From contig NZ_JAGSYH010000001.1 in assembly GCF_025685685.1 (NCBI RefSeq), forward strand, positions 62,001 through 126,000: a stretch of DNA of 64,000 nucleotides, in the 5' to 3' direction. This document shows positions 8,460-33,883 of the stretch, one piece after another. The notes beneath the pieces were generated by a model, which worked only from the letters and a program-made list of their open reading frames with translations, did not search any database and was not told where the DNA came from. The first letter of the stretch is position 1. Every line of letters begins with the position of its first letter. The translations under genes and the position numbers were made by a program. Source of the DNA: Acidicapsa dinghuensis (GTDB taxonomy: Bacteria > Acidobacteriota > Terriglobia > Terriglobales > Acidobacteriaceae).

Positions 8460-8537
<78 letters not shown>

Positions 8538-8601
8538 TACAAAACAAAGAACTTAAGTTTGTATGGCTCCTTCAGTGACAATCCACAATCCGATCCACAA
8601 A

Positions 8602-9777: not shown

Positions 9778-9783
9778 AACGTC

Positions 9784-10041
9784 TCATTTCAGTGAGGAAC
9801 GCCTAATGATTGGATGATACGCTCGTTCGCTTTCCGGTTGTCGTCGCTCTGATCCGACGCTTGGCTTGCCGATACAAGCGGCGAGTTCGGAAAGACGGAA
9901 TACCCATGTTTTCCGTACATCGCCTGTTCCGATCGCATAGGCACCGGAGATTCCGCGCCGCGCGAGTTCAATGAGAAACCGTCTACTGATTCCGACGAAC
10001 TTGGCGGCTTCCTGAGCTGATACGAAGGGTTCGGGGACCAT
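9784..10041 (-). CDS. Small HTH protein, excisionase-like
   Basis: The 85-residue protein begins PEPFVSAQEAAKFVGISRR, a typical MerR/excisionase-type helix-turn-helix in which the helix recognises DNA and a short wing follows (TWVFRLSELAACI). In integrative elements such proteins bend DNA for excision or regulate the integrase. The ATG at 10041 is preceded by a purine-rich stretch (GAGGAATTGTG on the coding strand); the frame extends 37 codons further upstream without a better start. It sits directly ahead of the integrase gene, consistent with an xis-int pair. A decayed copy is found at 13354-13492. Confidence 0.7.
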   Translation of the reverse strand: MVPEPFVSAQEAAKFVGISRRFLIELARRGISGAYAIGTGDVRKTWVFRLSELAACIGKPSVGSERRQPESERAYHPIIRRSSLK

Positions 10042-10326
10042 CACAATTCCTCCGGTCAGCGATTCATCGCTGATAGGAACACGTTCGCAAGCCCGTGTGC
10101 CTTCCGATGATTTTGTGTCACAGCATTTGCGGAGTCCAAGACTTTGAAGCAATAGAACTATTGCTTTTTTCTATTGCAGGCACACCGGGACTAATTCAGA
10201 GCGGGTACCTGAAGGTGCCCGATTGACAGTCTTGATTCATCCAAGGGACTCTAGTTTCGTCGTCGATTTTCACTGGGGCCTGCGCGATGTGCTTCTGCCA
10301 AAACTATCAGCCAGGAGATCAAACCT

Positions 10327-16900: not shown

Positions 16901-19900
16901 GGCCTGTCACGTAGCCAATGCTGGCAGCCGTCGCCGGTCCGCCATCTCCCAGAGCCGTTGCATTCGGGTTGCCGGTATAGGTGGTGATGATGCCGCTTGC
17001 CAGGTTCATTTTCCGAATCACTACATTGCTGTCGTCCGCGATGTACAGATTACCCTGCGAATCCAGCAGCAGCGCTTGTGGATATGCCAATTCCGCGTTC
17101 GTTGCAGGCCCTCCGTCTCCTTTGTATCCGACCTTGCCTGTTCCGGCAATTGTGGTCACTACTCCCGTATTCGCCGCCACCTTTCGAATGACATGGTTAT
17201 CTGAGTCGCTGAAATAGACATTGCCCGAGCCGTCCCGGACAGCATTGTACGGATAATCGATTTGTGCAAGCGTTGCAGAACCGTTGTCGCCCAGGTATCC
17301 GAGCGTTCCACTGCCGGCAATCGTGTAGATGAACGATGTAGAAGAGGATCCGATGACATACTGCGCTGATGCCGCAGGGCTCAGCGAATAGCCGTATGCA
17401 AGGGCGGCCACCACCAGAGTCTCGGAAGAAGAAACAGCAATGGGACCGGTGTAGAGATTGGAGCTCACCGTTGGAGGGGTCCCGTTCGTTGTGTAGTAGA
17501 GCTTTGCTCCCGGAGTGGAGTCGGTGACTGTCACCGTCTGCTGCGCGGCGTAGTAGCCGGACGCCAGCGAAATCGTTGGGGTAGCCGTCGCAGGTAGTTG
17601 CAGAGAATACTGCGCGTACGCGTAAAAGCTGTTCGCGTAGCCCGTTTCGGTCGCGTACGCCTCGATCGAGGTAGCCCCTGCGCCGGACACAGTGATGGGG
17701 CCCGTATAAGGTACGAATCCACTCGTCGAGAGCGCTCCCGAGGCCCAATAGTAGATTGTTGCTCCTGGAATGGACTCGCTCAATGTAATCGTCTGTACCG
17801 ATGTGTACGTGCCCGCTGCAGGCGAGAATGTCACCGGCGCCAGCCCCGGCGACAGCGCAGCGGTGATGGAATCGCTCGCCGGGTAGTTACCGTCTCCCGA
17901 GTAGCTTGCCTTCACGTTATGCGTTCCCACGCCCACCGGTGCAATTCCATTTACGGTTGCGGTGGTCGTCTGGCTCGGCTCGGCCAGCAGGATGGACGCC
18001 GTCTGGCTGTACCGTGTCAGCATTGCCAGGTCGGCAACGCCGTCGCTATTGAAATCAGCGGCGGCAAGGGCAAACGGGCCGACTGTGGTCTGGCTTACCG
18101 TCGGAATGGTGGTTGTTTCTGCAAATGTTCCGTTCCCGTTACCCAGAAACAGATCGATCTGATCGTTGTACGTATCCAGCCCCGCCAGGTCCATCTTGCC
18201 GTCGTGATTGAAGTCCCCCATCAACAGACTTTCGCCGGAGCCGGAATTGTTGCTGGTCGGTCCGTTGAAGCTCCCGTCTCCGTTTCCCAGATACAGCCCC
18301 ACCCCGCCGCTATAACCAAAGGCCAGGTCCAGCTTGCCATCTCCATTGAAGTCGCCGGCGACAATGGAATAGGCAAAGGAATCGGCGGCGAGCGGTGTGG
18401 GCGTTGCGAATGTCCCGTCTCCCTTGCCAAGAAACACCATCGCGCCGCCCGGCCCGAAATACTCGCTGGCCACCAGATCTGGAATGCCGTCGCCATTAAA
18501 GTCTCCGGTCGCTACCGTACTAAATCCTTGATCCGATGCAAGATTCGGTCCGAGGATCTTAAAGGTTCCGTCGCCATTGCCCAGAAGAACGGTGACTCCA
18601 CCGGAATTGACATAGTCGCCTACGACAGCGAGGTCCAGCTTGCCGTCTCCGTTGAAGTCGGCGCTGACCATGGCTCCTGTGATGCCATCGCCACCCACAA
18701 TGCCCTGTTGAAATGCCAGACTCGTTTGCGGCGCGGCAAAGGTTCCATCTCCATTTCCTAACAGCGTCACCACAATGCTGGACGACGTACTGTTTTCCCA
18801 GGTAAGTACCGCCACGTCCGCCTTGCCGTCTCCATTGAAATCGCCGCAGACGAGATAACCGTTCTGATCGTTCGAGAGCGCCAAAGTGGTTGCCGGACCG
18901 GCCGTGAAGGTGCCATCTCCGTTGCCGAAGAAAATTGTCAACCCGCTCGGACCGTTGTAGGTTGAGATGGACCAGAGAACGGCCAGGTCCGGGATGCCAT
19001 CGCCGTTGAAATCTCCAGTCACCTGAGCCATAGGGTCGTTATCGAAGGTTGGAGTCTGCGAAATCTCCCACCCCATTCCAGCCTGACTCGTACCCAGAGA
19101 TGCTGTCCCCAGCACCGTATTTCCAAAGCTGGTATCGATGAATGAGACCTTCCCGGTCAACGGCGCGGTTCCGCCAAATCCGTCCACCGTCGCGGTCAGT
19201 GAGTACTGTCCCGGGTTTCCCTGGACGGCGATCGCTGTCTGATCGGTATAAACAGGCTTGGGCGCCGGACCGACGGTGAGCGAAGCAGCACTCGACGCAC
19301 TGCTCATGCCCCATCCATCCTCAACAAAGATGGCCTTGTAGCTGTGCTGGCCTGCTCCCGGAACGAATTGGAAGGACGCCGTTCCGTTGGCGGAAAGTAT
19401 CGCCGTTCCCAGCAGGTGAACATCCGTGCAGTATGTCGCCGTAGCATCACAGAAGTTGACTTGCCCAGCCGTGACCGCGCTGGCCCCGGCTTTTACCGTT
19501 GCGGTCAGCTTTACCACCGTGTTCGGAGCAACGCTGGTCACCGCTTTTCCGCTGGAAGTAATACTCAGCGAAGTTGTTGTCGCAGGAGGCACGCCCCACA
19601 AAGGAATGGTTCCTGAAAAACTGGCGTTGTATTGGTTATCTCCCCCGTAGTTCGCATCGACTTGATGCTGGCCGGCAATGGGCAGGGATACGTTCGCTGT
19701 CGCCGTTGTCGTTTCTGTCGGTTTGGTGAGGTATACCCCGAGAGAGCTATCGTAATAGCCGCCGGCAACGATATCCGGGTATCCATCTCCATTGAGATCG
19801 CCCACGCCAACTTCGAGATAGTAAGGAACACTGAGACCCGATACGACCAGAAAACTCTTGCTGGGTGAGCCGCTCCCATCGTTCAACAGAACGGTGGCGG

Positions 19901-21434
19901 TCCCGTTCGAGTCTCCCAAAACCACGTCCGGCGTGCCGTCCTGGTTGAAATCTGCGACCTGGATCCAGGTGACGGCCGTTTCATTCGAACTCGGGCTCGA
20001 GGACGGCGCGTTGAAGGTGCCGTCTCCGTTACCGGTGAGTATCGTCACCGTCTCGGCGACGCCCCCCGAGCCGCCCGTCGCGACCGCCAGATCAACCTTG
20101 CCATCGCCGTTAAAGTCCGCTACGGCTACAGGAGAACCAGGACTTCCCGAATGCACTATCCCCGCCGCTGCAAAGGTGCCATCCCCGTTTCCAGTAAGAA
20201 TAGCAATCGTGTCACCGCTCTCCGAGACTGCCAGATCGGCCTTGCCGTCTCCGTTAAAGTCTCCTGTTGCGATGCGGGTCGGAACGTCGGAGATCGGAGG
20301 CAGGGTTGCTTGCGCGGTAAAGGTCCCATCGCCGTTACCCCGCAGAATATCCACCACCGCATTCTGAGTGTCGATCACCGCCAGGTCGGGAATGCCATCG
20401 CCATTGAATTCTCCGGTGATGATCTGCGGGATATCGACGAGGGTGCCGGGTACGGTGGCTGCAACCGGTGCTGCGAAGGTGCCATCCCCTTTTCCCAGCA
20501 GAATCGATATCACGTTCGAGCCGTACATCGGTACGGCCAGGTCGGGAATGCCATCCCCATTGAAGTCGGCGACAACGATCGGGTAGTTGGTTGGCCCCTG
20601 CAGGGAGGGAGTGGCTGCCTGAGTAAAGCTCCCATCACCGTTGCCGAGGTAGATCGAAACGTAATTGGAACCCAAAATCAGATCGGGAATCCCGTCTCCG
20701 TTGAGGTCTGCCACCGTCTCGAAATAGTTGTCCAAGCCGCCCGGCAGCGATTTCGGATTTGGCCATGCGATGCCAGGAGCAGCCGCTCCCAGCTGTCCTG
20801 TTGCCAGCACCGAATTCCCAGTGCTGGTATCCAGAAACGATACGGGGCCGGCAATCGCTATAGTCCCTCCGGCCTCGGTTACTGTCGCGGTAAGCTGGTA
20901 ACTTCCCCAACCTCCCGTTTCTGCAATCGCTGTTGTGCTTGCGAGGGTCCCTACGGTCCCAGTTACCGTCAGTTGTGTAGCAGCAGAAAAACTCGCTGCT
21001 TCGCTGGTTGTTCCCGGAAAAACTGCTTTATAGCTATGCGAACCGATGCCCGGCCGAAGCTTCAACACCGCCGTGCCTGCTGATGTTACCTGCGCCACGC
21101 CCAATACGTGAATATCTGTGCAATACTCCGCTGTCGCGTCGCAGAAGTTTACCTGACCCGCATAGATCGTTCCCGATGCTGGAGTTACCTTTGCCGTCAG
21201 CGTGACGGTCGTTCCCTTGGTGACGTTAGTGGTGCTGCCCGTTCCAGTGGTGACTGTCAATGTAGTTGTGGTGGACGTCTTACTTGCCGCTTCGACCGGA
21301 ATGGCCCAATCCATCGCTGACGAAGTTACCCAAAAGCCAGTCAACATGATGGTAAGCAAGGCAGCAATGTGTCGGAGTTGCAACCCAAGACGCAAAACAT
21401 CCGCATGGCAAACACGCGCAAACAGCTTAGTCAT
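13974..21434 (-). CDS. Giant secreted FG-GAP/NHL/Ig-repeat surface protein (2486 aa)
   Basis: The protein begins with a signal-anchor-like hydrophobic segment and continues as a mosaic: Ig-like bacterial domains, two blocks of FG-GAP/VCBS repeats with the calcium-binding-like motif DFNGDGIPDLAV (about residues 230-570 and 790-1130), chitobiase C-terminal-like domains (YYTTNGTPPT and YYTLDGSTPT), and about a dozen NHL beta-propeller repeats (GDGGPATSA, GNLYIADS) around residues 1370-2190. The C-terminus has a hydrophobic segment, a basic RKRRR cluster, a second hydrophobic segment ending AAGGCGGGG, and a short tail. I infer a cell-surface adhesion or glycan-binding role; the ligand is unknown. 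GGGGGATGG precedes the ATG. Internal DNA repetitiveness follows from the repeats. Confidence 0.88.
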   Translation of the reverse strand: MTKLFARVCHADVLRLGLQLRHIAALLTIMLTGFWVTSSAMDWAIPVEAASKTSTTTTLTVTTGTGSTTNVTKGTTVTLTAKVTPASGTIYAGQVNFCDATAEYCTDIHVLGVAQVTSAGTAVLKLRPGIGSHSYKAVFPGTTSEAASFSAATQLTVTGTVGTLASTTAIAETGGWGSYQLTATVTEAGGTIAIAGPVSFLDTSTGNSVLATGQLGAAAPGIAWPNPKSLPGGLDNYFETVADLNGDGIPDLILGSNYVSIYLGNGDGSFTQAATPSLQGPTNYPIVVADFNGDGIPDLAVPMYGSNVISILLGKGDGTFAAPVAATVPGTLVDIPQIITGEFNGDGIPDLAVIDTQNAVVDILRGNGDGTFTAQATLPPISDVPTRIATGDFNGDGKADLAVSESGDTIAILTGNGDGTFAAAGIVHSGSPGSPVAVADFNGDGKVDLAVATGGSGGVAETVTILTGNGDGTFNAPSSSPSSNETAVTWIQVADFNQDGTPDVVLGDSNGTATVLLNDGSGSPSKSFLVVSGLSVPYYLEVGVGDLNGDGYPDIVAGGYYDSSLGVYLTKPTETTTATANVSLPIAGQHQVDANYGGDNQYNASFSGTIPLWGVPPATTTSLSITSSGKAVTSVAPNTVVKLTATVKAGASAVTAGQVNFCDATATYCTDVHLLGTAILSANGTASFQFVPGAGQHSYKAIFVEDGWGMSSASSAASLTVGPAPKPVYTDQTAIAVQGNPGQYSLTATVDGFGGTAPLTGKVSFIDTSFGNTVLGTASLGTSQAGMGWEISQTPTFDNDPMAQVTGDFNGDGIPDLAVLWSISTYNGPSGLTIFFGNGDGTFTAGPATTLALSNDQNGYLVCGDFNGDGKADVAVLTWENSTSSSIVVTLLGNGDGTFAAPQTSLAFQQGIVGGDGITGAMVSADFNGDGKLDLAVVGDYVNSGGVTVLLGNGDGTFKILGPNLASDQGFSTVATGDFNGDGIPDLVASEYFGPGGAMVFLGKGDGTFATPTPLAADSFAYSIVAGDFNGDGKLDLAFGYSGGVGLYLGNGDGSFNGPTSNNSGSGESLLMGDFNHDGKMDLAGLDTYNDQIDLFLGNGNGTFAETTTIPTVSQTTVGPFALAAADFNSDGVADLAMLTRYSQTASILLAEPSQTTTATVNGIAPVGVGTHNVKASYSGDGNYPASDSITAALSPGLAPVTFSPAAGTYTSVQTITLSESIPGATIYYWASGALSTSGFVPYTGPITVSGAGATSIEAYATETGYANSFYAYAQYSLQLPATATPTISLASGYYAAQQTVTVTDSTPGAKLYYTTNGTPPTVSSNLYTGPIAVSSSETLVVAALAYGYSLSPAASAQYVIGSSSTSFIYTIAGSGTLGYLGDNGSATLAQIDYPYNAVRDGSGNVYFSDSDNHVIRKVAANTGVVTTIAGTGKVGYKGDGGPATNAELAYPQALLLDSQGNLYIADDSNVVIRKMNLASGIITTYTGNPNATALGDGGPATAASIGYVTGLAMDSAGNLYLSEETAGSIREVTASNGIIQTIAGNGMNGYAGDGGPASSASFRNPEGLAFDKSGNLYIADSGNDVVRKITATSGVITGSSTISTVAGVVKVVNGYPQGGYSGDGGPAASAQLSEPVAVATDNASNLYISDSGNNVIRMVAAGTGNISTVAGNGSECASYGGDGGSATSASLCVPQGIAVDNAGNILIADQGSNRIREVFTAAAPSAPAATPTFSVSSGTYASLQTVTVADATPGASIYVTVDGSTPLTGSSPGYSLPIGVAGKVTIKAIATAPGSLTSAVASATYTIAASSPQIATIAGSGVSGFSGAGGPALDAEFNYLQGVAVDKAGNVYVSDIYNNVVWLISAATGKASVFAGSSSGYAGSGGDGGPATSASLAEPMGIALDSTGNLYIADSVNGRIRMVNAATGIITTVAGNGTLAEGNIGDGGPATAASLAAPIAVAVDAAGNIFIADTEHYVIREVSAKTGIITTVAGDGTNILSGDGGTATSAGIESPSVLAVDTNDNIYLTAWGTGTVRKVTASTGLITTVAGISEIFGATGDGGPATSAEIDPEWIGLDSAGNLYISNWPGTIREVNASSGIIARVAGIGFGGFSGDGGAALAAELYGPSGLGFDGSGNLYFADSYNYRVRKVMFAAQSAATPVFSLPGGAYNYAPNVTITDATANAAIYYTLDGSTPTSSSSLYSGPIAVSSSETINAIALAAGYNPSSVASAAYVISANPSAPALSSLSPAFVSAGAGAFTLTVNGTAFTPASTILWGANAMTTQFVSTTQLAAQVSARDVASAGIASVSVQTPAPGGGTSNTLEFEIDSAGGNGFPSFPSPTVTVTAGSTATYAVTLPSSATNVSVNCLNLPVGAACSYSTQSSSLVITTAATTPSGTYQITAVFTEMLPGAATGFVLLPIMLAPFALRKRRRAMRVWLIVSIGLVAAMVVAAGGCGGGGSTQTSPPQTHQVTNSGTVTLIVK

Positions 21435-22423: not shown

Positions 22424-25400
22424 TTAACGACGTCCTATTCTTCGCCGAGCCAAAGCGGTTGCGGTCGACGATGTGCTGGATCCGTATTTACTGCTGCCAT
22501 CCGGGGTATAGCTGGCGCTGACCGAATCGCCGGCAGTTAAGGAAAGACCGGTATACGGGACGGAGATTTGAGTCCCGCTCAGCATCACTCCAGTGTTATT
22601 ACTGAAGCAATTGGAAACCACTAAATCGGGAGTGCCGTCGAGGTCGATATCTCCTACTGCGGAAGAGTAAGGACCCGTACCAACCTTGAACGGGCCGGAG
22701 AGCGTATACGTCGAGCCTGAAGGTATCAGCAGGTCGACCGAACCATCGGTGTAGTTGGTGACGACAAGTTCTTCAATGCCGTTGAAATCTGCAAAGTTGA
22801 CGTCATCGGGCCCTTTGCCAACGCCGGTGACCTTGGGAGCTGCAAAGGTGCCGTTGCCGTTGCTGTTGTATACGCTGACGGTATCGTCGTTGTAGTTGGC
22901 AACGGCCAGTTGCAGGCTGCTGCCTGAGCTCTGCATCGCAAGCGCCTCAGGGCCTGAATGTACGCCGCTGCCTACGGTGAACGAAGTCTTGGTAAAGGTC
23001 CCATTCTCGTTATTCAACAGAGTGGTGACCGTCCCGTCGTTATAGTTGGCCACGGCCAAATCGGTGTACCCGTCTCCATTGAAGTCGCCGGCTCGAATAG
23101 CAACCGGATCGTGTCCGACTGAGATGGCCGGCGATTGCAAAGTTAATGATCCCGAGCCGTTGCCCAAGAGGATGCTCACGTTGTTGTCGTTTCCGTTGAC
23201 TACCGCGACATCCAAATGACCGTCGTGGTTGAAGTCGCCGGTGGTAAGCGACAAGGTGTAGTTCGTCGCCGAGCCGACGGTGTAAAAGGTGGGTGTCTGG
23301 AAGGTTCCGTTGCCATTACCCAGAAGGACAGCGATCTCATTCACGTTGAAGCTGCCCACGATCAGGTCGAGCGTGCCGTTGCCGCGCAGGCTTACCAGAT
23401 GAGCCTCCGCCGGACCAAAGCCTGTGACTATGGGGATGTCTGTCGCCGCCTGGAAGGTTCCGTCCCCGTTGCCCAACTGCACGCGGATCGAGTCGGTCTG
23501 GTAGAGTGACGCGATCAGATCGAGCTTGCCGTCGCCGTTAATGTCACCGAGCTCGGTCCAGTCGGGAAGCGAGTTTGTGCCTGTGCTGGTAGTTACCTGC
23601 GGCTGTACCGCCGTGACAGCATTGGAAGTATTCAGCGTAACTGGAGCTGTGATCGGGTTGCCTGTAGTCAGGTCGGTGAAGGCAAGCTGTCCGCTTGGCG
23701 GCGTCAACCCAAAGCCGAAGACATCAATGGTAGCCGCGGTTGCGCTTAACGAGGCGAGCGACGTCAGCGATTTGCCGAGATTTGTCAGCTGGAAGTTGTT
23801 CGTTAACGAGCCAGCACTGGCCTGCACGTTGTATGGACCGCCCGGAATACCGTTGGCAGTCATGAAACCGGAACTCGCCTGTCCGAGGCCGTTCGTCACT
23901 GCGGCAGTGGTCGTTAATGCATTCGAGAAAAGCAGACTTGATGTGAGCCCCGTCGGCGCAGTAAAAGTCACCGTCACACCGGGGACCGGATTTGAGCCGG
24001 CATCGGTTACCAGTGCGATCAACGGGTTTACGAAGTTCGTATCAATCGTCGCGCTTTGATTATTACCGCTGCTTAGGGTCACGGCGGTCGGCACTTGCAC
24101 CACGGTCACGACATCAGTCGACGACACGGCCGTAGCCGAACTGGTATGAGTCACATCGCCGCCACCCCATGCGTTCGCGGTGTTGCTTACCAAGATCGGT
24201 GAATTGGCCGGTACGTTCACGACTAGGAAGATCGATGAATTGGACCCACCGGATATCCCCGCTGTCGTAGTGCAAGTGATCGCAGTGGTGCCGCTGCAAC
24301 TCCATGCACTGCCTGTGGATGTGTACGAGTTGAGCGTGTAGCCTGAGGGCAGCGAATCCGACACAGAGATAGTGCCGTAGGTTGAGCCGGAGGATGCTGT
24401 GTTTTGCACGTCTATGTTCCATCGGGCCGTCTGGCCCTGCGTGAAGGTGCCCGTATGGGTCTTCACAACTGCCAGCACCGCAGCCGGCAAAATCGTCACT
24501 GAGTCGGTATTGGAAGTTGTGGCGTTGGCTCCGCCGCCGCTTACCGAGACCTGGTTCGAGATACTTGTGGTGGTGCTCGCGGTCGGGCTTACATTCACGT
24601 CGATCACCAGCGCTGGGTAACTGCTGTCCTGGGCCACGGCGGAGTCGTTCTGGCACGTCACCGTCTGTCCGACCGCTGAGCAGCTCCAGCCGGTGCCCGA
24701 GAAGCCCGCGTAAGAGAAGGCAGAGTTCAGCGTATCGGTGACGGTAAACGCGTTAGCGCTGTTCGTCGTGGGATTGCCCGTCGCGCCCGGTCCGTTGTTG
24801 GTAATGCTGACTATGAACGGCACGTCCTGCTGGCCCTGTGTGAAAGTAGCAGTGTGTGACTTGGTCACAGATACGGATGGCTGATTCACTGTGATACCCA
24901 CGCACCAGCCGGAGAGGTTGCTCACCTCGCCCCCTCCAGTGGGGCCGCCATCATCCATGTAGAGACTCCAGGTTCCGTTTCCGTTATAGGTGCTGGAACT
25001 GGTGCCACCAAAAACTCCTGCCTCATTCGCGTTGCCCAGAATAGCGGTCCCGGTGGTCGCAGCTTTGTTGGTCGGAGTGAACGGGTTCGAAGCCAACGGC
25101 GGTCCCACCGGCGGGTTGGCGCAATCGCTTGCATTGGGCGGGCATTGCGGGTAGGTGAGGCTCGTGTTCAAGCTCGTCGGCTTGAAGCTGCCGGAAGAAG
25201 AGAGATTTCCGGTGACCAGACTTGACGCCGTATCGGAGAAGGTAAGGTTGATTGTTGGGGCTGAGGAGACATTGGTGCCCGTCAGCGAGAAGAAATCGAG
25301 ATTATTGCCGCTCGGGCCAACCAGCAGCGAGAGCAGATCACCCTGATCTTTGGTGCTGAAGTTATCCAGAGAGACCGTCACCGCATTCACTGTGCCCGGC

Positions 25401-27526
25401 AAATTAGTCACGAAGATGTTCGAAGGATAAGGCGAAGCCGCGCCCGCGTCGACGCCAAGGCCCGGGACCGTGATTGCGCCAGTATTGCAGAACGTGTACG
25501 GCCCGGCCCCCGATCCAGTACTGGGATTGGTCGTCGCTGTGTCAACGCGTTGGTCGAACGTCGCAGAGCTAATACCGAACTCGGTTCCAGTGTCGGTCCC
25601 GCTGTAGCTGGCGACGATATGGTGCGTGCCTTCCGCCAGCGTTGTGCTCAGCGTCGCCACGCCATTTGAAACTGCGCCAGAACCCAGGTTGGTGCTGCCG
25701 TCGACGAAGGTGACCGTGCCCGCATTCACTGTCAATCCAGAGCTGTCGGTGACAGAAACCGTGGCGGTGAGATTGACGCTAGCCGTTGTGGCGGGCGGGG
25801 TGAATTTAGCTGGATTCGGTGATCCGCTGACTGTCGTCGCGGTCGGATGCGCATTCACCTGCGTTGTGAAATTAAGGCACCAGGAGCCGATCGTCCCGAG
25901 GGTTCCACTTTCGATTATCCGGTTGTCGAGATACAGGCTCCAGGTACCACTCACCCCGCCGCCTCCGAACTCAGTTAGGAAGGTGCCCGAACCGGTGGGA
26001 GCGGCAGTGACGAAGGACGTCGGCGCAGGAGAGGGGAACAAGTCTGAATTGCTCGAGCCTACCTCATCGTGATTGTCAGTCGGCAGACAGGTGGAGCAGG
26101 TTGGAGCGGAGAATGCAGGAATCTGCGATGTACCCGTGTCAGATAGCGTAAGAGAACCGCTGCTGAAGGGGTTCCCCGCCCAGGAGAGAAACTCGAAGGC
26201 GTTGCCGGAACTCGAGAGATTCGTAGTGTTGGAACCAGGCGCCTGCAACAGAAAACCAAGGTCGTCCAATTCTTGGCCGTTCTGCAGATTGAAACCATTC
26301 AGGCTCACAGTAACGCTCTCGATGGTGCCGCTGAGAGTAGGCTCAGTGTCGCCGGGAATGTTTGTAGGGCCCAGAACGATCATTGATGGATACGGAGTCC
26401 CGCCGGCGTTGGACGAGACCGTGATTCCTCCGGTGTTACAGAAAGTCCCGTTGCTCGGGTTCGTCGCGTGGTTGACCGCGATCTGGCTTTCTGTGTTCGA
26501 GGCGGCGCTGGCCGCGAATCCAGTTCCACCGTTGTAAACGGCATCCACGTTGTGAGTGCCTTCGGTTGCGAATGTTGTGGTAAGGGTGGCATTTCCCGAC
26601 GAATCTACGCTGGCAGTCACGAGATTTGTGTTGGTGGTATTGTCATGCAGCGTCACCGTGCCAGTCGTCGCAGGACCGCTATTGTCTGATTTCTCCACAT
26701 GAGCAGTGAAGGAAACAGAACTCCCGGTCCCCGACGTAAAGGCTGGGTTCGGAGAGCCCGCCTGCAGTGTCGTTGTAGTGGCAGCATTGCCGCCTGTAAC
26801 GACGAACGTAATGCTCCAGGACGAGATAACCGTGGGGTTATCGTCGTTCCCTTGGTCCACGGCAAACAATCTCCAAGTCCCGTTCAGACTCCCGGCCGCA
26901 TTTGCTGTCCCGCCGGTGAGAGACCCGAACGTACTCGTGAATGTGCTGGTGCCCGTGCCGCCCGTACCGTTGCCCGCGATGCTATATCCCGAGCTTCCAG
27001 GACCCGGCGAGGGGAAATTATCCGCCGTGCCGGCGTTGTAGTGGGCAGGTTGGTAGGCGGACGAAAACGGGGTGGGGCATACGCTAGCGTTAGGAAACAG
27101 AGCGCTCGCCGAATCTTCAAGCGTCACCGTGAAGCCGCCATTGGAGGCAGCCGTGACCATCGCCTGGGTCGTTCCGCAAGCGTCGGATAGCATGTCCAAC
27201 ATGTGTGTTCCGTCGGGTGACTGGATGAGGAGCGCGGGATCGATAAAGCTTTGGTCCAGATCGAGGGCGCTGTAGGTGATCGTCACCGACATCGACGTTA
27301 AGGTACCGGAAAGGCCGCTGACGGTGATGCAGGCGGCATTGGTGCAACTTGAGGGTGCAGCCGAACTTGGGTACACAGAGGGGACCGTGTTGCCAGAGCC
27401 TTGAGTGATACTGATCGACCCTGAGTTAGAGAATGTCTGCGCACAGAGGATTCCGGTCGACAGAACTAACAGAAAGCTTAGGGATATGACAGACCGAACG
27501 GCCGTCTTCGCTCTCATTTCGTGCAT
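22424..27526 (-). CDS. Giant secreted Ig/P-domain/VCBS-repeat protein (1700 aa)
   Basis: The protein starts with a clear signal peptide (SLSFLLVLSTGILCAQ). Three regions resemble the P-domain (proprotein-convertase-like beta-sandwich) seen at the ends of secreted proteases (WRLFAVDQG, WSLYLDNR, WSLYMDDGG). They alternate with Ig-like Big_3/5-type domains (FTAHVEKSDNSGPATTGTV), then DUF11-type repeats (about residues 880-1140), and finish with FG-GAP/VCBS repeats (DFNHDGHLDVAV, DFNGDGYTDLAV). The last ten residues (ARRRIGRR) look unlike the preceding Ig domain, so the C-terminus may be truncated or altered near the adjacent IS110 relic. GGAGGGAAC precedes the ATG. A surface or extracellular matrix role is inferred; no enzyme motif is visible. 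Confidence 0.85.
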   Translation of the reverse strand: MHEMRAKTAVRSVISLSFLLVLSTGILCAQTFSNSGSISITQGSGNTVPSVYPSSAAPSSCTNAACITVSGLSGTLTSMSVTITYSALDLDQSFIDPALLIQSPDGTHMLDMLSDACGTTQAMVTAASNGGFTVTLEDSASALFPNASVCPTPFSSAYQPAHYNAGTADNFPSPGPGSSGYSIAGNGTGGTGTSTFTSTFGSLTGGTANAAGSLNGTWRLFAVDQGNDDNPTVISSWSITFVVTGGNAATTTTLQAGSPNPAFTSGTGSSVSFTAHVEKSDNSGPATTGTVTLHDNTTNTNLVTASVDSSGNATLTTTFATEGTHNVDAVYNGGTGFAASAASNTESQIAVNHATNPSNGTFCNTGGITVSSNAGGTPYPSMIVLGPTNIPGDTEPTLSGTIESVTVSLNGFNLQNGQELDDLGFLLQAPGSNTTNLSSSGNAFEFLSWAGNPFSSGSLTLSDTGTSQIPAFSAPTCSTCLPTDNHDEVGSSNSDLFPSPAPTSFVTAAPTGSGTFLTEFGGGGVSGTWSLYLDNRIIESGTLGTIGSWCLNFTTQVNAHPTATTVSGSPNPAKFTPPATTASVNLTATVSVTDSSGLTVNAGTVTFVDGSTNLGSGAVSNGVATLSTTLAEGTHHIVASYSGTDTGTEFGISSATFDQRVDTATTNPSTGSGAGPYTFCNTGAITVPGLGVDAGAASPYPSNIFVTNLPGTVNAVTVSLDNFSTKDQGDLLSLLVGPSGNNLDFFSLTGTNVSSAPTINLTFSDTASSLVTGNLSSSGSFKPTSLNTSLTYPQCPPNASDCANPPVGPPLASNPFTPTNKAATTGTAILGNANEAGVFGGTSSSTYNGNGTWSLYMDDGGPTGGGEVSNLSGWCVGITVNQPSVSVTKSHTATFTQGQQDVPFIVSITNNGPGATGNPTTNSANAFTVTDTLNSAFSYAGFSGTGWSCSAVGQTVTCQNDSAVAQDSSYPALVIDVNVSPTASTTTSISNQVSVSGGGANATTSNTDSVTILPAAVLAVVKTHTGTFTQGQTARWNIDVQNTASSGSTYGTISVSDSLPSGYTLNSYTSTGSAWSCSGTTAITCTTTAGISGGSNSSIFLVVNVPANSPILVSNTANAWGGGDVTHTSSATAVSSTDVVTVVQVPTAVTLSSGNNQSATIDTNFVNPLIALVTDAGSNPVPGVTVTFTAPTGLTSSLLFSNALTTTAAVTNGLGQASSGFMTANGIPGGPYNVQASAGSLTNNFQLTNLGKSLTSLASLSATAATIDVFGFGLTPPSGQLAFTDLTTGNPITAPVTLNTSNAVTAVQPQVTTSTGTNSLPDWTELGDINGDGKLDLIASLYQTDSIRVQLGNGDGTFQAATDIPIVTGFGPAEAHLVSLRGNGTLDLIVGSFNVNEIAVLLGNGNGTFQTPTFYTVGSATNYTLSLTTGDFNHDGHLDVAVVNGNDNNVSILLGNGSGSLTLQSPAISVGHDPVAIRAGDFNGDGYTDLAVANYNDGTVTTLLNNENGTFTKTSFTVGSGVHSGPEALAMQSSGSSLQLAVANYNDDTVSVYNSNGNGTFAAPKVTGVGKGPDDVNFADFNGIEELVVTNYTDGSVDLLIPSGSTYTLSGPFKVGTGPYSSAVGDIDLDGTPDLVVSNCFSNNTGVMLSGTQISVPYTGLSLTAGDSVSASYTPDGSSKYGSSTSSTATALARRRIGRR

Positions 27527-27912
27527 ATGTTCCCTCCGAGGTGTGAGCGCTGCTACACTTCACCTACTCCAGGCCAGGCTTGGAATGGCAATTGGACCGA
27601 GATGAACCCCTCGCATGTGCAAGTTGAAATTGTGGGAGTGACGTGCAAGCGGGGCTGGAACGCGGGAAGTGTAGCACAACCAGTCAAGACAAGGAATAAA
27701 AGAAAAAAGCAGCCTTCGCACACCATTAAGTCAGGCGTAACTGCGCCGACATATGAGGTTCTGTTATCTATTTTTATTTTTCCGTTTTTTTCTTGCGAAC
27801 CAGCAGAATTCCGTAGTACGGTTTGTGACTGCCACATCGCACACTTTAAACGCTGACCTCAAAAAATCCGCAGCCGATCAATTCGGAATCCTGAGTTTGG
27901 GAGGAATGATCT
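27527..27912. other. Divergent intergenic region
   Basis: About 385 bases between the 1700-aa gene (leftward) and the tail-collar operon (rightward). It should hold both promoters. An AT-rich stretch at about 27760-27800 stands out. No gene is supported; short frames on both strands have non-coding composition. Confidence 0.4.
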
Positions 27913-28410
27913 ATGTCTCAGCCCTATGTCGGTGAGATACGGATGTTTGGTGGTAACTTCGCGCCAGCAGGCTGGATGTTTTGCCAGGGGCAGTTGCTCC
28001 CCATCTCCGAATACGAAGTCCTGTTCAACCTCATCGGCACCACCTATGGCGGCGATGGCCAATCCACGTTCGCTCTTCCGGACCTGAGAGGCAGGATCCC
28101 TGTGCATATGGGGTCTGGGTTCGTCCTCAGCCAGAGCGGCGGTTCGGAAAACGTTACTCTGACGTCGACCACGGTACCGGCGCACACCCATACGGTCCTG
28201 GCCACGACGAATCCGAATACTGCTTCTCTCCCAGGCGGCAATTACCTGGCTGCGGGCCCCGACGTCTACGATCAGAACAAACCCGGAACAGCAACGATGG
28301 CCGCGGCGATTTCGTCCGTTGGGGGTAGCCAGCCGCACAGCAATTTCCAACCCTACCTGTGCGTCAGTTTTATTCTCTCTCTCTTCGGAGTATTCCCCAG
28401 TCAGAGTTAG
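27913..28410 (+). CDS. Tail-collar domain protein 1
   Basis: The 165-residue protein belongs to the phage tail-collar (microcystin-dependent protein, MdpB-like) family. It shows the family signature in order: VGEIRMFGGNFAPAGWMFC, GQLLPI, LIGTTYGGDGQSTFALPDLRGRIP, HTH and the C-terminal PYLCVSFILSLFG-FP. GGGAGGAATGATCT precedes the ATG. It is the first of three paralogues separated by 24 and 18 bases, all in one operon with a GNAT enzyme. Family members occur both in tailed phages and as free-standing chromosomal genes; no other phage genes are near, so this is probably a chromosomal set. Confidence 0.9.
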   Translation: MSQPYVGEIRMFGGNFAPAGWMFCQGQLLPISEYEVLFNLIGTTYGGDGQSTFALPDLRGRIPVHMGSGFVLSQSGGSENVTLTSTTVPAHTHTVLATTNPNTASLPGGNYLAAGPDVYDQNKPGTATMAAAISSVGGSQPHSNFQPYLCVSFILSLFGVFPSQS

Positions 28411-28434
28411 CCGAGAGTTAAAGGAGAACCGCGG

Positions 28435-28932
28435 ATGAGTACGCCATTCCTATCTGAGATCAAGATTTTCAGCTTTGGTTTCGCGCCCAAGGGTTGGGCG
28501 CTTTGCAACGGGCAACTGCTGCCCATCAACCAGAACCAGGCCATCTTCTCTCTGCTCGGGACTACTTACGGCGGCGATGGCCGAGTTAATTTCGGGTTGC
28601 CGAATCTGCAGGGCCGTATCCCCACACACATGGGCAACGGACAAACTCTTGGAGAACGCGGTGGCGAGCCGAATCACACGCTGTCGATCGCCGAGATCCC
28701 CAACCACACTCACACCTGGGCTGCGACCAATAGCGCCGCTAACGCACCCGGTCCGACCTCCAATCTGTTGGGGGCGGCCCCGGAATATAACGGCTCCGCC
28801 AGCAATCTTGTGGCTATGTACCCCGGCACGTTAGCGACTGTTGGGGGAAGTCAGCCGCATGAGAATATGCAGCCTTACCTCACGTTGAATTTCTGCATCG
28901 CGTTGCAGGGAATATTCCCCAGTCAGAACTAG
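28435..28932 (+). CDS. Tail-collar domain protein 2
   Basis: Second paralogue, also 165 residues, with FGFAPKGWALCNGQLLPI, LLGTTYGGDGRVNFGLPNLQ and a C-terminus ending GIFPSQN. It keeps the same domain layout as the first copy but has diverged strongly in the middle (residues 85-140), where the exposed loops would lie. AAAGGAGAACC precedes the ATG. Confidence 0.9.
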   Translation: MSTPFLSEIKIFSFGFAPKGWALCNGQLLPINQNQAIFSLLGTTYGGDGRVNFGLPNLQGRIPTHMGNGQTLGERGGEPNHTLSIAEIPNHTHTWAATNSAANAPGPTSNLLGAAPEYNGSASNLVAMYPGTLATVGGSQPHENMQPYLTLNFCIALQGIFPSQN

Positions 28933-28950
28933 CCGTCAGGAGAACGCAAC

Positions 28951-29487
28951 ATGGCAGATCCGTTTGTAGCCGAGATAAGGATTTTCCCGTTCAACTTTGC
29001 GCCCAAAGGGTGGGCGTTTTGCAACGGCCAGCTTCTATTGATTGCCCAGAACACGGCAGTCTTCTCCCTGCTTGGAACCACATACGGCGGAGACGGGAAA
29101 AGTAATTTTGCGCTGCCCAATCTGCAGGGAAACGCTCCCATGTTTCCTGGCCAAGGTCCCGGCCTTAGCCTGCATGATCTTGGCGAAACAGGCGGCTCGA
29201 ATACTGTCAGCCTGCTCACCTCCGAGATCCCGATTCACACTCATACCATCAATTGCGTCGACGGCTCCAGAGTTGGAGGGCAGACCGGCCAACCAGGCAA
29301 CTCAATTCTTGTAAAGACTGGGGGTGCACCGGCAAATGCTTACGCCAACAACGCCGTGCCGAATCAGTCTATGGCCGCGAATATGGTGTCGCCAGTGGGC
29401 GGTAGTCAACCGCATAACAACATGATGCCGTATCTTACGCTCAATTTCTGCATCGCCTTGCAAGGAGTTTTCCCGCCGCGCAGTTAG
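28951..29487 (+). CDS. Tail-collar domain protein 3
   Basis: Third paralogue, 178 residues, with FNFAPKGWAFCNGQLLLI, LLGTTYGGDGKSNFALPNLQ and HTHTINC. It is longer than the other two because of an insertion in the variable loop region (about residues 108-135). CAGGAGAACG precedes the ATG. The tight spacing suggests the three products form a complex or are made together; this is inference. Confidence 0.9.
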   Translation: MADPFVAEIRIFPFNFAPKGWAFCNGQLLLIAQNTAVFSLLGTTYGGDGKSNFALPNLQGNAPMFPGQGPGLSLHDLGETGGSNTVSLLTSEIPIHTHTINCVDGSRVGGQTGQPGNSILVKTGGAPANAYANNAVPNQSMAANMVSPVGGSQPHNNMMPYLTLNFCIALQGVFPPRS

Positions 29488-29542
29488 CAGACTTTCTCAG
29501 CCAGAAACCGGTTCGAAGGCCGGTCTGCAGTTTACTTGAGCT

Positions 29543-30025
29543 ATGTCGACTCTTGCTGTTCGCCCTGCGCTGCCGCAGGATGAGATATTTCTGTACGACC
29601 TCTACTCGGCTATCCGCGGTCCAGAGTTCGCGATCGCGCCGATCTCGGCGACGCAAAAAGAACACCTCATCCGGATGCAGTTTCAAGCTCAGATGTCGGC
29701 GTATGCGCAGATGTACCCGAACTCTTGTTACCACTTGGTGCTGCTCGACGGCAAGCCGGCAGGCCGGTTGTGGTTCGCGCCAGGAGACGGCGAGTTTCAT
29801 TTGGTGGATATCGCCGTCCATCCGAAGCTGCAAAGCAAAGGAATAGGAACCGTGCTGATCCAACGGCTGCAACAGGAAGCCACCAAAGCTAGGCTGCCCA
29901 TTCGCTGTTCCGTGTTTCGGTTTAATCCTGGCTCTTTGCGCTTCCATCAACGCCAGGGATTCTCCATCGTACGGGAGGATCAGACGCACTATTACCTGGA
30001 GTGGCGTCCCGTGCCGTTGCTGTAG
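29543..30025 (+). CDS. GNAT-family N-acetyltransferase
   Basis: The 160-residue protein has the GNAT fold: the central beta-strand and acetyl-CoA loop are seen as VDIAVHPKLQSKGIGTVLIQRL (motif A, with Q-x-x-G-I/G form) and a C-terminal FHQRQGFSIVREDQTHYYLEW. It follows the third tail-collar gene by 55 bases, in the same direction. The recurring collar-plus-GNAT arrangement suggests it may modify the collar proteins or an associated molecule; the substrate is not known. Confidence 0.9.
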   Translation: MSTLAVRPALPQDEIFLYDLYSAIRGPEFAIAPISATQKEHLIRMQFQAQMSAYAQMYPNSCYHLVLLDGKPAGRLWFAPGDGEFHLVDIAVHPKLQSKGIGTVLIQRLQQEATKARLPIRCSVFRFNPGSLRFHQRQGFSIVREDQTHYYLEWRPVPLL

Positions 30026-30083
30026 CAACGTAAAGAAGGTCTACGCATTGGTGGAATCGGTCGTGCCGCGTTCAACGTGAGGG

Positions 30084-30614
30084 CTAGGGCTCAACCTGAG
30101 ACTGGATGGCCGCCTCTATTGCGGCGCCAATCAAGCTCCGTGTCCACGCCTCGCAAACCTCGACGAGGCGAGCTCGCAGTTCTTCGGCGTCGGCGTAGCG
30201 AAACACGCTCAGGTCCTTGCGCTCTTCCAATTCTCGGCGAAACGCCAAGATCTCCGCGTCGCTTTCGTGGAGTGCATCTTTCAAGCAGATCACGATATCG
30301 CGCATCGGCATGGCAGAATCATCCCGGCACTCGGCTGCCAGCATAAACAGTTTGCGAAAGAGATCGCGCGGTCCCCAGTCATCCTGAAAGATCTGAATAA
30401 AGTAAGAGCTCCAGCGGGCGTTGTCTGAAACAATGCTCCGATATGTTGCGATGTGCTCGTTATCCCGCAGACCGACCGAAACCAGCAATATCTTTGCCGG
30501 CATGGCCGTCGTTTCGTTGACCTCTGCGATGACGTCGTAACAGACCTGGCGATCCACATCGAGATCTCCGGGGGCGGAAATAAACACACGGTAGGTGTCG
30601 AATCCGTGAGGCAT
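30084..30614 (-). CDS. DUF4062-like hypothetical protein
   Basis: The 176-residue protein begins YRVFISAPGDLDVDRQVCYD, the N-terminal signature of a TIR/DUF4062-like fold found in signalling and NTPase-linked proteins (strand, small loop, acidic helix). The rest has a strand-helix pattern ending in a long C-terminal helix (about residues 115-170). There is no transmembrane segment and no fused NTPase. It converges on the GNAT gene with a 58-base gap and is read away from the peptide cluster. The role is unknown; the family link is by motif only. Confidence 0.6.
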   Translation of the reverse strand: MPHGFDTYRVFISAPGDLDVDRQVCYDVIAEVNETTAMPAKILLVSVGLRDNEHIATYRSIVSDNARWSSYFIQIFQDDWGPRDLFRKLFMLAAECRDDSAMPMRDIVICLKDALHESDAEILAFRRELEERKDLSVFRYADAEELRARLVEVCEAWTRSLIGAAIEAAIQSQVEP

Positions 30615-31151
30615 AGAGAGGGATCAGCATAATCGAAACAACCGGGTAACTACAATATGGCGTATTCAGCGAATTGCTGCTCTTGGCAATAGGTAAGATT
30701 CCTACTGGGTGAATCGCATAACAAATGCAACTTCGAGAAAGCTTGAGTTACGACGACGGCATTGCAGACTGAGTGGTCTCAATCTATACTTGCGGCACCG
30801 TCGATCAGGTGTTGGCTGGAAGCCGTGGAGTCTGCACGTTCGGCGGTCCCTCTCAAGGGCGTTCGTCTATGACCGGTTGCAGTGGAAGACTTCGACCTCT
30901 GCGGGAGCCCCAATATCACGGTATCCAACTGCCTCGGCAGAGATTAGGAGTTAAGCTGTCCGAGACCTGGGTTTCAGTGCTTATGCCGGGTTCGTTTCAC
31001 TTCCGGCGCGGCAATCCAGATCATTCCCTCGCCGAACAGTACCGACACGGATTCATCAAGCAATTCCGAAGACGTCAGGACACCGTCACTAGGTGCAATG
31101 ACGCCGAGAGCATGATTCATGTAGTTGTGAGGAAAGGAGGTCAATTCGGAT
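30615..31151. other. Long leader/intergenic region before the peptide cluster
   Basis: About 540 bases with no supported gene; the open frames here have non-coding composition. It must carry the promoter(s) of the peptide gene and of the DUF4062-like gene. A very strong ribosome binding site (AAAGGAGGTC, 31132-31141) lies at its right end. I see no known riboswitch fold. Confidence 0.45.
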
Positions 31152-31346
31152 ATGGAAGATAAACCGGAAGAGATGCCGACTCAGGAAGGACAGGATGTTG
31201 CACCCACATCTTCGCCCGGGGATGAGATAACGACGGAGACTTCAACTCGGCGCGAACTCATCGAACGCTACGGCAAATATGCCCTTGTAGCAACTCCATT
31301 ACTGTTGTTTGCTTCGAAGGCACACGCGATCCACAGCAAACCGTAG
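31152..31346 (+). CDS. Small peptide, possible RiPP-like precursor (64 aa)
   Basis: A near-perfect ribosome binding site precedes the ATG, so this short gene is probably translated strongly. The N-terminal 30 residues are acidic and flexible (Glu, Asp, Pro, Thr). The C-terminal half reads TRRELIERYGKYALVATPLL followed by LFASKAHAIHSKP, a basic-hydrophobic segment that could be a recognition or membrane helix. It lies directly upstream of a nucleotidyltransferase and an HprK-like kinase on the same strand. In lasso-peptide clusters such as paeninodin, an HprK-like kinase phosphorylates a serine at the end of the precursor; here Ser62 is near the C-terminus. No precursor-processing enzyme is adjacent, so the RiPP idea is inference. 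Confidence 0.7.
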   Translation: MEDKPEEMPTQEGQDVAPTSSPGDEITTETSTRRELIERYGKYALVATPLLLFASKAHAIHSKP

Positions 31347-31474
31347 GCCGAACAGGCCGCCATAGTGCAGTCCCCGTCGACGCGAGCGACCCCTCCCCTG
31401 GGCTGCACGATCGAACCATCGCAACTTAGCGATCTGGCGCAACTCGTCCATTCACTTATTAAGGAATAATCGAC

Positions 31475-32641
31475 ATGTCAGCGTCGAGAACCTTTGGAAT
31501 TGCAATGCGTGCGAATACAACGGTCGCACCTAGACGATGCAGTCATGAGCCGGTTGACGAAGCCGCTTTGCTCATTACGTGTTTGCGCGGGCTGCCATGC
31601 ATCGTTCCAGAAGATACGAACTGGGAGCTCCTACTCGATCTGGCAAGAGAGAATGGCGTACTTCTCCTCCTCCAGCAAGCGCTGCTTGCGCTAGGCGCCG
31701 ATGTGCCTGGTTTCTTCCGCGACGCCGCTGCGGAGTGCCGGGCCGCTGCCGAACGGCTTGCAGGTGAACTGGAGTGCTTGCTGCGCGGCTTTCAGGGACT
31801 TCATGTTGAAGCACTAGCGTTCAAGGGGCCGACGTTGGCGCTAGCGCTTTACGGGGATGTCACGCTACGTTCATCCAACGACCTCGACCTGCTTGTGCGC
31901 CATGACGATTTTCTGCGCTGTGAAGTGTGGCTGATAAACCAGGGCTTCATCGCTTTGGGTCCGGCAAGCGAACATGACCGCAGATTTGTTCGCGACGGGC
32001 TTCTTGTCGAATTGCATTTTGAGCTTGCCGCATACAGGGATTTCCCATTGGATGTTGACGGTATCTGGCGACGTTCTCGTCCCGCCGATTTTTGTGGCCA
32101 GTTTGTTCGGGCGATGTCCGATATCGATCTGGTTCTGTATCTCTGTGCCCACGGCTTGAAGCATGGCTTTTCAAGGCTGATCTGGATCCTCGATGTTGCG
32201 CGGTCACTCCATGGGTGGCATCGCAACGCTTATGAAGAGATGATGCGGCAGGCGCGAAGACAGGGTCTGGAGCCGCACCTGCTCATCGGTTGCGAGGTTG
32301 TCCGCTCAATGTTTCCACAACAATTGCCGGAAGCGTTGGATGCGGTGATCATCATGTCGCCCAAAGCAGCCAAGCGTGCGCGCCACGCTGCAGCGAGGCT
32401 CTTCTCGGAGAACCTGGAAGTTGTGATTAATGATTTCCGTAGCTTCTATCTGCAGGCGGAGCCGGGCGCCCTAAAGCGATGGCGCTATCGATTTGGTTAC
32501 CTCGGGCCCACCTACACTGATTATCTATGGGCGCGGAGCCACCGGATCTACCCAGGGCTTATGGTCATTCTCAGGCCCTTTCGGCTGCTGCACAAATATG
32601 GTTTGGGGAGGGTATGGCGAGTTTTATTTCCGGAGCAATAG
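31475..32641 (+). CDS. Nucleotidyltransferase family protein
   Basis: The 388-residue protein belongs to the uncharacterised nucleotidyltransferase family NTP_transf_5. The signature is FKGPTLALALYGDVTLRSS followed by NDLDLLV (about residues 115-140), where the acidic pair should bind metal; a helical C-terminal part follows. AAGGA precedes the ATG at 31475. It sits between the 64-aa peptide and the HprK-like gene. Members of this family recur beside HprK-like kinases in peptide-modification and PEP-CTERM-type clusters. The substrate is unknown; transfer of a nucleotide to a peptide or a small molecule is inference. Confidence 0.85.
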   Translation: MSASRTFGIAMRANTTVAPRRCSHEPVDEAALLITCLRGLPCIVPEDTNWELLLDLARENGVLLLLQQALLALGADVPGFFRDAAAECRAAAERLAGELECLLRGFQGLHVEALAFKGPTLALALYGDVTLRSSNDLDLLVRHDDFLRCEVWLINQGFIALGPASEHDRRFVRDGLLVELHFELAAYRDFPLDVDGIWRRSRPADFCGQFVRAMSDIDLVLYLCAHGLKHGFSRLIWILDVARSLHGWHRNAYEEMMRQARRQGLEPHLLIGCEVVRSMFPQQLPEALDAVIIMSPKAAKRARHAAARLFSENLEVVINDFRSFYLQAEPGALKRWRYRFGYLGPTYTDYLWARSHRIYPGLMVILRPFRLLHKYGLGRVWRVLFPEQ

Positions 32642-32719
32642 CGCGTTGAATCTCATCGGCTTGCTTGCGAGTTGGGCTGCAGTCAGTGAAGCAGTTTTCT
32701 CTCGGAGGTTGCATCTGCT

Positions 32720-33883
32720 ATGCATGTTGTAGAGGAATGTTCGATTGCAGTCTACGACGTTGAGGGCGTTGCGTGCGCCTGCCCGCGTCAATGGCTCTAC
32801 CTGCTCGGGGAGGGCGGCGTGGTTTACTCCGAGCTGCAGAACCGTTTTGCCGGTCTTAATCCTGCGGGAGTTTCTGCGTATCGCGCTTTTGAAGCAGGCG
32901 CCTCATTGGAAGATTTGCGCACGATACCTGATGCGGATCACTTCACCTCCACTTCAGGCGAGGAACTTCAAACTGTCTATAAGCTGTCTCAAGGCACCTT
33001 CCCCGACGAGGATGCATCACCGGAATGGCCGACCCTGAATCTTTCTTCATGCGGAGATCCAGCGAACGTCACCATCGAAATCGATGGCAATCCTATATCT
33101 CTTCGTTACCCACCGGGACGGCTTGCGCGCTTGTGCCTGGATTACTTCCGGGGCTGCCCGATCACCAACAGGCAGCCACGCTGCTACCTTTCTGCACAGC
33201 AGACGGGAAACGGCTGGGCGATCTACGTCAACGACTGTGAGTTCCTGGTCTTGCAAAGGAAACAACAGCTTGGACTGGGCCTGATGCACGCAGCGCGATC
33301 CTTCCTAAATGTCCAGGGCGATTACGATGTCGCCTTCCACGCCGCGATGGCGGCGCAAGAGGACCGCGGCATCCTGCTTTGCGCCGCGCGCGAGTGCGGC
33401 AAGAGCACCCTCGCCGCGCATCTTGTGGCTCAAGGATTCGACCTCTTGACCGACGAGCCAGCTCTCTTGGATCTCGATACGTGGTCGGTCAAGTCTCTCA
33501 GCGTACCTATCAGCCTGAAGCAGGGAAGTTGGCCCGTCCTGCAGCGGCAGTGGCCGGATCTCGCCAGCGCGCCAGTTCATATCCGCTCAGACGGCACAAA
33601 GATCCGACTGGCGCATCCGTCGAAAGAGCGTTGCTCATCCAGGGCTCGCCGCTTGACACAGATTGTATTTCCCCACTACTGTCCGGGCTCTAAGGCGCGA
33701 GTTGAATCCATGTCGCCGTTCCAGACGCTTCGTTGTCTCATCGACGGAGGAATGTTGCTTCATAGGCGTGTAGCGCGAGACGGCTTCGAGAAGTTTCTGA
33801 GATTGATTAGCCTGACTCCAGCATATGAAATTCACTATCCTTCGCTGCAGGAAGCCGACAGGATGCTTCGTGAGGCGATATAA
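32720..33883 (+). CDS. HprK-like kinase
   Basis: The 387-residue protein carries an HPr-kinase-like P-loop near residue 225 (AARECGKSTLAAHLV) and a DEPALLDLD segment like the HprK Walker B region. The first glycine of the classical P-loop is alanine here. The N-terminal 110 residues have no recognised domain. GGAGG at 32704-32708 precedes the ATG. The real HprK phosphorylates a serine of HPr in the sugar phosphotransferase system; no HPr or PTS gene is present, so this copy probably acts on another protein, and the neighbouring 64-aa peptide is the natural candidate. This is inference from context. Confidence 0.8.
   Translation: MHVVEECSIAVYDVEGVACACPRQWLYLLGEGGVVYSELQNRFAGLNPAGVSAYRAFEAGASLEDLRTIPDADHFTSTSGEELQTVYKLSQGTFPDEDASPEWPTLNLSSCGDPANVTIEIDGNPISLRYPPGRLARLCLDYFRGCPITNRQPRCYLSAQQTGNGWAIYVNDCEFLVLQRKQQLGLGLMHAARSFLNVQGDYDVAFHAAMAAQEDRGILLCAARECGKSTLAAHLVAQGFDLLTDEPALLDLDTWSVKSLSVPISLKQGSWPVLQRQWPDLASAPVHIRSDGTKIRLAHPSKERCSSRARRLTQIVFPHYCPGSKARVESMSPFQTLRCLIDGGMLLHRRVARDGFEKFLRLISLTPAYEIHYPSLQEADRMLREAI

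Follow-up and report, generated by a model that had tools for sequence, protein, structure and literature searches.

A conserved 64-residue peptide gene beside an HprK-like kinase and a nucleotidyltransferase: a candidate linear RiPP-like system in Acidobacteriota and Alphaproteobacteria

The locus described here raises the question of whether a very short open reading frame, encoded ahead of an HprK-like kinase and a nucleotidyltransferase, is the substrate on which these two enzymes act. It lies in a 64,000-nucleotide stretch of the Acidicapsa dinghuensis genome, hereafter the window, and its features are collected in Table 1. The first-pass annotation of this DNA had described a strong ribosome binding site, a short peptide and two enzymes in the same direction, and this description is borne out, with a Shine-Dalgarno sequence (AAGGAGGT) and all the genes on the + strand.

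Table 1. Features of the peptide locus, numbered from the first letter of the window
Feature	Position	Strand	Basis or remark
Block conserved with the congener G755	22424..33883	.	Same gene order in G755
Shine-Dalgarno sequence AAGGAGGT	31134..31141	+	10 nt before ATG 31152; sequence
64-aa candidate precursor peptide	31152..31346	+	Profile rank, purifying selection against G755, kinase adjacency elsewhere
Conserved 36-codon segment, residues 29-64	31236..31343	+	dN/dS about 0.03 against G755
Twin arginine R33-R34	31248..31253	+	Invariant among family peptides
V46-A-T-P49-L-L51 motif	31287..31304	+	Spacing of 16 residues from the first Arg to Pro; similar to the RRE-binding [Y/W]xxPx[LVIAFY]
A57-H-A59, signal-peptidase-like A-x-A	31320..31328	+	Sequence; kept in G755
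Ser62, candidate phosphorylation site (inferred)	31335..31337	+	Identical in G755
Nucleotidyltransferase NTP_transf_5	31475..32641	+	PF14907, E 8e-47
RRE-like domain fused to HprK-like kinase	32720..33883	+	TIGR04352 E 1.5e-28
RRE/PqqD-like N-terminal domain, residues about 15-90	32762..32989	+	Strands, then three helices
Kinase domain, residues 200-387	33317..33880	+	H207, P-loop K228, D245; HprK/PEPCK fold

The peptide gene and its conserved segment

The open reading frame, 64 codons long from its ATG, is a real gene. With a leave-one-out profile built from 13 peptides, all from loci other than the window, it ranked first among the 759 open reading frames of the window (E 1e-6; the runner-up had 0.89), and comparison with the congener G755, found via a search with a neighbouring gene, revealed purifying selection, with dN 0.038 and dS 1.26 over the C-terminal 36 codons. 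On these two grounds, a chance open reading frame was rejected. The congener peptide also has 64 residues from the matching ATG, a 76-residue reading being possible as well, and GGGAGGT likewise stands upstream of its start.

The constraint is unevenly distributed. Between the two species, 33 of 36 residues are identical in the C-terminal part, including the final four (HSKP), against 9 of 27 in the N-terminal part (Fisher p 1.5e-6). Both enzymes are 64-67% identical, with dN values of 0.22-0.235, which leaves the peptide tail under tighter constraint than any other part of the system. Of the acidic leader-like half and the conserved C-terminal segment that had been described previously, only the second is thus conserved. 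The division into leader and core also has to be redrawn, since the conserved segment, which runs to the end of the peptide (ETSTRRELIERYGKYALVATPLLLFASKAHAIHSKP), itself resembles a leader or signal rather than a core. Judged from its sequence, TRRELIERYGKYALVATPLL is best read as the leader or signal, and the likely core would be the very short tail after AHA. In the window this tail reads IHSKP and contains a single Ser or Thr, Ser62.

The elements of the conserved segment follow the order RR, hydrophobic-xxPx-hydrophobic motif, AxA and short tail, and the twin arginine followed by the motif was present in 19 of 19 tabulated peptides. In 13 of the 14 window-type peptides the proline lies 16 residues after the first arginine, compared with 11-13 residues in the TIGR04352-type set. 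Among 26 comparison twin-arginine open reading frames, filtered out of the fetched loci, the xxP motif was found in two, one of them itself a family peptide, and at a spacing of 16 in none. Several family peptides start the motif with Tyr (YTAPIM, YTAPVL, YSVPVI, YAAPFT), the window peptide having VATPLL; the RREs of lasso and LPP systems bind [Y/W]xxPx[LVIAFY] (PMC13381572). The A-x-A and a tail come after the motif, and this tail starts with x-S in many family peptides. Pfam and NCBIfam scans returned no named family for these peptides and, within the literature and family libraries searched, the precursor family appears new.

The two enzymes and their association with the peptide

The nucleotidyltransferase of the window carries the residues K117, R132, D136 and D138, invariant across 13 homologues. 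The second enzyme scores 99.7 bits against TIGR04352 (HprK-related kinase A), about half of the cut-off of 200, and a structure comparison restricted to its kinase domain returned PEPCK (Z 17) and HprK as the sole matches. The likeness to lasso-type phosphorylating enzymes proposed in the first-pass annotation holds for fold and gene content.

The N-terminus of this kinase is predicted to be an RRE-like domain on the basis of a family profile, shuffled sequences and an AF2 model. By sequence alone, the assignment is weak, although none of 500 shuffles reached its leave-one-out score of 10.7 bits; two window-type kinase N-termini aligned by hhalign with separate PqqDs gave a weak match (E 0.016, probability 3%). 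The family profile, made of 12 window-type kinases, 11 of them peptide-linked, matched solved RREs with its N-terminal third (TfuB1 5e-8, TbiB1 1e-7, LppB 3e-4) and solved HprKs with its C-terminal half. An AF2 model based on an alignment with the congener shows strands and then three helices, with a pLDDT of about 85 between residues 20 and 60; this is the topology that PMC13381572 describes for RREs.

A conserved peptide gene travels with the kinase and the nucleotidyltransferase, both enzymes with named domains. The first distant relatives were located directly upstream of PqqD-HprK kinases in the acidobacteria G288 and G628. A tblastn search of plasmids with the window peptide gave no match, a profile from two sequences run over the phylum returned mostly noise except G628, and the G628 peptide, as query on genome contigs, matched only itself. 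A peptide-only profile, blind to the enzymes, was run over 399 genomes and gave four strong matches (E about 1e-13 or better), in G082, G288, G213 and the window genome, all of which adjoin an HprK-like kinase. G213, recovered only by this blind scan, also has the nucleotidyltransferase; the weaker matches were ordinary Tat proteins. By our own tally, the peptide is present at 11 of the 14 acidobacterial kinase loci with strong scores and at 8 of the 9 loci on alphaproteobacterial plasmids, in both cases usually with the nucleotidyltransferase. The plasmid members, hosted by Leisingera, Ensifer, Sinorhizobium, Rhizobium, Methylobacterium and Parasedimentitalea, adjoin HprK-like kinases and, for the most part, NTP_transf_5 genes too. 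The search for the peptide motif in genomes with the same gene pair, suggested in the first-pass annotation, has been run with a positive outcome: RR-peptides adjoin HprK-like kinases, in most cases together with NTP_transf_5, in both Acidobacteriota and Alphaproteobacteria.

The association extends to loci above the TIGR04352 cut-off, which in a sample of 376 genomes were found in four (G580, G556, G638 and G453). In all four, a small RR-AxA open reading frame, recognised partly by eye and pattern and not by profile, is the first gene of the HprK and nucleotidyltransferase set, and in three of them (G580, G556, G453) a PqqD gene lies in between.

Other arrangements were observed around related loci. 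A PqqD protein with an RR...AxA-like C-terminus, a leader-like peptide fused to an RRE, adjoins an HprK-like kinase and an NTP_transf_5-like gene at locus L142 (2652-3053, - strand). At two acidobacterial loci, PEP-CTERM-like proteins, called by eye with no relevant family match, are encoded directly upstream of the RR-peptide (L138, 4386-5108; L034, 7269-7997).

A proposed route and its rivals

We consider it probable that these genes form a small linear RiPP-like system, in which leader docking would be followed by tail phosphorylation, a nucleotidyltransferase step and Tat- or Sec-type export. Related enzymes are known to act on peptides: LppK, LppB and LppN of Bacillota work on a linear peptide and place several phosphates on core Ser3 (PMC13381572), pseudomycoidin is phosphorylated and glycosylated by PsmK/PsmN (PMC9266682), and lasso peptides are tailored by HprK and NTP enzymes (PMC8498205).

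For the window, we infer docking, the modified residue, the second-step chemistry, cleavage and export as follows. The 64-residue peptide would be the precursor and its conserved segment (RRELIERYGKYALVATPLL) the recognition leader, which the RRE-like N-terminal domain of the kinase would dock through the hydrophobic-xxPx-hydrophobic motif. Ser62, within the few residues that follow AHA, would then receive one or more phosphates from the HprK-like kinase domain, and NTP_transf_5 would add a nucleotidyl or sugar group onto this phosphate. The RR-hydrophobic-AxA part would direct export by the Tat or Sec route, with cleavage by the housekeeping signal peptidase, and the modified tail IHSKP would be released or stay anchored in the membrane. 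Ser62, the candidate site put forward in the first-pass annotation, is retained in the congener, but some family peptides have a residue other than Ser adjoining AxA.

Several observations count against the RiPP-like reading. Five residues are short for a core, and the residues directly following AxA are not always Ser or Thr in the family (GPNNR in G580). The window kinase has E246 (D-E) where most relatives have D-D. No peptide was seen beside the kinase at three strong acidobacterial loci, G499, G461 (at a contig edge) and G426, nor at the Methylosinus locus L033. In addition, solo RR-peptides are encoded on S. meliloti pSymB-type replicons (L102, 6974-7282; L103, 6998-7273) in DNA-repair gene regions (LigD, Ku), with no adjacent kinase or nucleotidyltransferase.

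The best surviving alternative, even though we consider it unlikely, is that the peptide is an unmodified small protein, Tat-exported or membrane-anchored, and that the substrate of the enzymes is something else, for instance a precursor of a surface polysaccharide, their only tie to the peptide being shared regulation. The window peptide does have the sequence features of a Tat substrate (RR, a hydrophobic stretch and A-x-A, the classic signal-peptide layout), TatC is present in the host genome, the weaker profile matches are ordinary Tat proteins and exosortase genes lie beside some related loci. However, the motif with Pro at 16 is largely missing from ordinary twin-arginine open reading frames, an RRE or PqqD, which is a peptide-binding module, is found in or beside the kinases, and the related enzymes work on peptides (PMC13381572, PMC9266682).

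The gene neighbourhood brings in a further candidate. The block shared with the congener contains an FG-GAP/Ig secreted protein (- strand), three Collar-domain proteins, a GNAT, a 176-residue protein (- strand), the peptide, the nucleotidyltransferase and the kinase; beyond it, no similarity to the window was detectable in G755 over 19.5 kb upstream and about 7 kb downstream. The Collar genes were absent from the other congeners sampled, and the kinase from the three sampled for it, so the 22.4-33.9 kb block is accessory. The three tandem phage-tail Collar-domain (PF07484) proteins and the following GNAT acetyltransferase (27913-29487), which lie with the peptide module in one 11-kb block, share their order with the congener with a dN of about 0.1. 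The window also encodes two very large secreted FG-GAP/Ig-like proteins (13974-21434 and 22424-27526), and very large repetitive or surface proteins are found near the related kinase loci L033, L047, L048, L034 and L035. A possible island end lies at 8461-10152, where a tRNA-Asp adjoins a tyrosine integrase (PF00589, 8602-9777, - strand) and a helix-turn-helix protein; a search for an attachment-site repeat of this tRNA in the window, and for another full-length copy elsewhere in the genome, found neither.

In a second alternative, the peptide and the three Collar-domain proteins encoded upstream would together form a toxin-antitoxin, regulatory or phage-tail-like device, regulated by the kinase; this would fit the Collar genes, GNAT and 176-residue gene keeping their order in the congener. 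We hold it to be improbable, since none of the loci checked for Collar proteins had one and a divergent gene separates the Collar genes from the peptide in the window. Slightly less probable still would be a remnant of, or in-trans tailoring for, a lasso peptide encoded elsewhere in the genome: two lasso-like loci (L164, L165) do lie on contig C12 of the host, one with a lasso B2 (73 bits) and a PqqD-type protein, and lasso peptides are tailored by such enzymes (PMC8498205), but the RR-peptide, kinase and nucleotidyltransferase set occurs in unrelated genomes without nearby lasso genes, and the peptide is under strong constraint of its own.

Returning to the linear RiPP-like system, its wider form is more tentative. 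It is possible, and we put it forward with some reserve, that a RiPP-like class of Acidobacteriota and Alphaproteobacteria, including Sinorhizobium meliloti, uses one and the same segment as docking leader for an RRE-fused kinase and as Tat/Sec signal. If so, a peptide could be phosphorylated and receive a sugar or nucleotide in the cytoplasm, and then be exported directly without a dedicated peptidase or transporter, and the missing precursor of the NCBI 'HPr-rel-A' systems would be supplied. The peptide would also offer a testable substrate for HprK-like kinase and nucleotidyltransferase pairs named in databases only by homology, and some of the loci occur in rhizobia amenable to experiment (S. 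meliloti Ak57, R. tropici CIAT 899). As a lead only, the location of LPP clusters in capsule loci and the exosortase adjoining two of the acidobacterial kinase loci suggest a cell-surface role.

Comparison with known systems

A literature search that covered few subscription journals found no paper naming HPr-rel-A or describing RR-leader precursors for HprK-like kinases, and the window locus is in a branch without a name in existing database models. As had been noted from the start, no lasso cyclase, leader peptidase or transporter is found in the 22.4-33.9 kb block, whose genes were typed except that of the 176-residue protein. Paeninodin and pseudomycoidin (PadeK, ThcoK, PsmK, PsmN) share with the window a C-terminal Ser phosphorylated by the kinase, as would be the case here, and a nucleotidyltransferase homologue, which adds hexose; contrary to paeninodin-type lasso clusters, the block has neither lasso B2 or C enzymes nor a lasso-type leader. 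Tat signal peptides share the twin Arg, the weakly hydrophobic stretch and the A-x-A, whereas the window peptide has in addition the hydrophobic-xxPx-hydrophobic motif, a long variable N-terminus and almost no mature protein.

The HPr-rel-A system of NCBIfam (TIGR04352, and TIGR04353 for PqqD) is similar in its PqqD-type domain, HprK-like kinase and nucleotidyltransferase, and in the small RR-AxA open reading frame placed first at the four above-cut-off loci sampled. The window system is not a member by model score (99.7 of 200 bits), has no separate PqqD (TIGR04353) gene in the block and differs in its Pro spacing (16 against 11-13).

The LPP system, known from the lpp cluster of Paenibacillus alginolyticus (Popov et al. 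2026, PMC13381572), also has an HprK-like kinase, an NTP-transferase and an RRE, together with a short linear precursor with a variable tail and no macrolactam cyclase. In the window the kinase has the corresponding His, Lys and Asp (H207, K228, D245), and the RRE-like domain is an N-terminal fusion to it. A Pro-containing leader motif lies about 15 residues before the modified Ser in LPP, and 13 before Ser62 in the window. However, the RRE of LPP is a discrete protein, a dedicated SipW-like peptidase and an MsbA-like exporter accompany it, and the LPP leader (YxxPxVLxHQxIxFETxxS) resembles that of the window (RR...VxxPxL...AxA) only in VATPLL at the Pro position. Without an SpI-like peptidase or MsbA-like transporter in the cluster, and with a different leader, the window system is not LPP by definition, and the two belong to different phyla, LPP being from Bacillota. 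The window system would nevertheless work like both LPP and HPr-rel-A, which would add to the linear phosphopeptide RiPPs a group from outside Bacillota whose leader is different. The set conserved in soil bacteria and rhizobia looks like a little-studied route to phosphorylated, probably exported, peptides.
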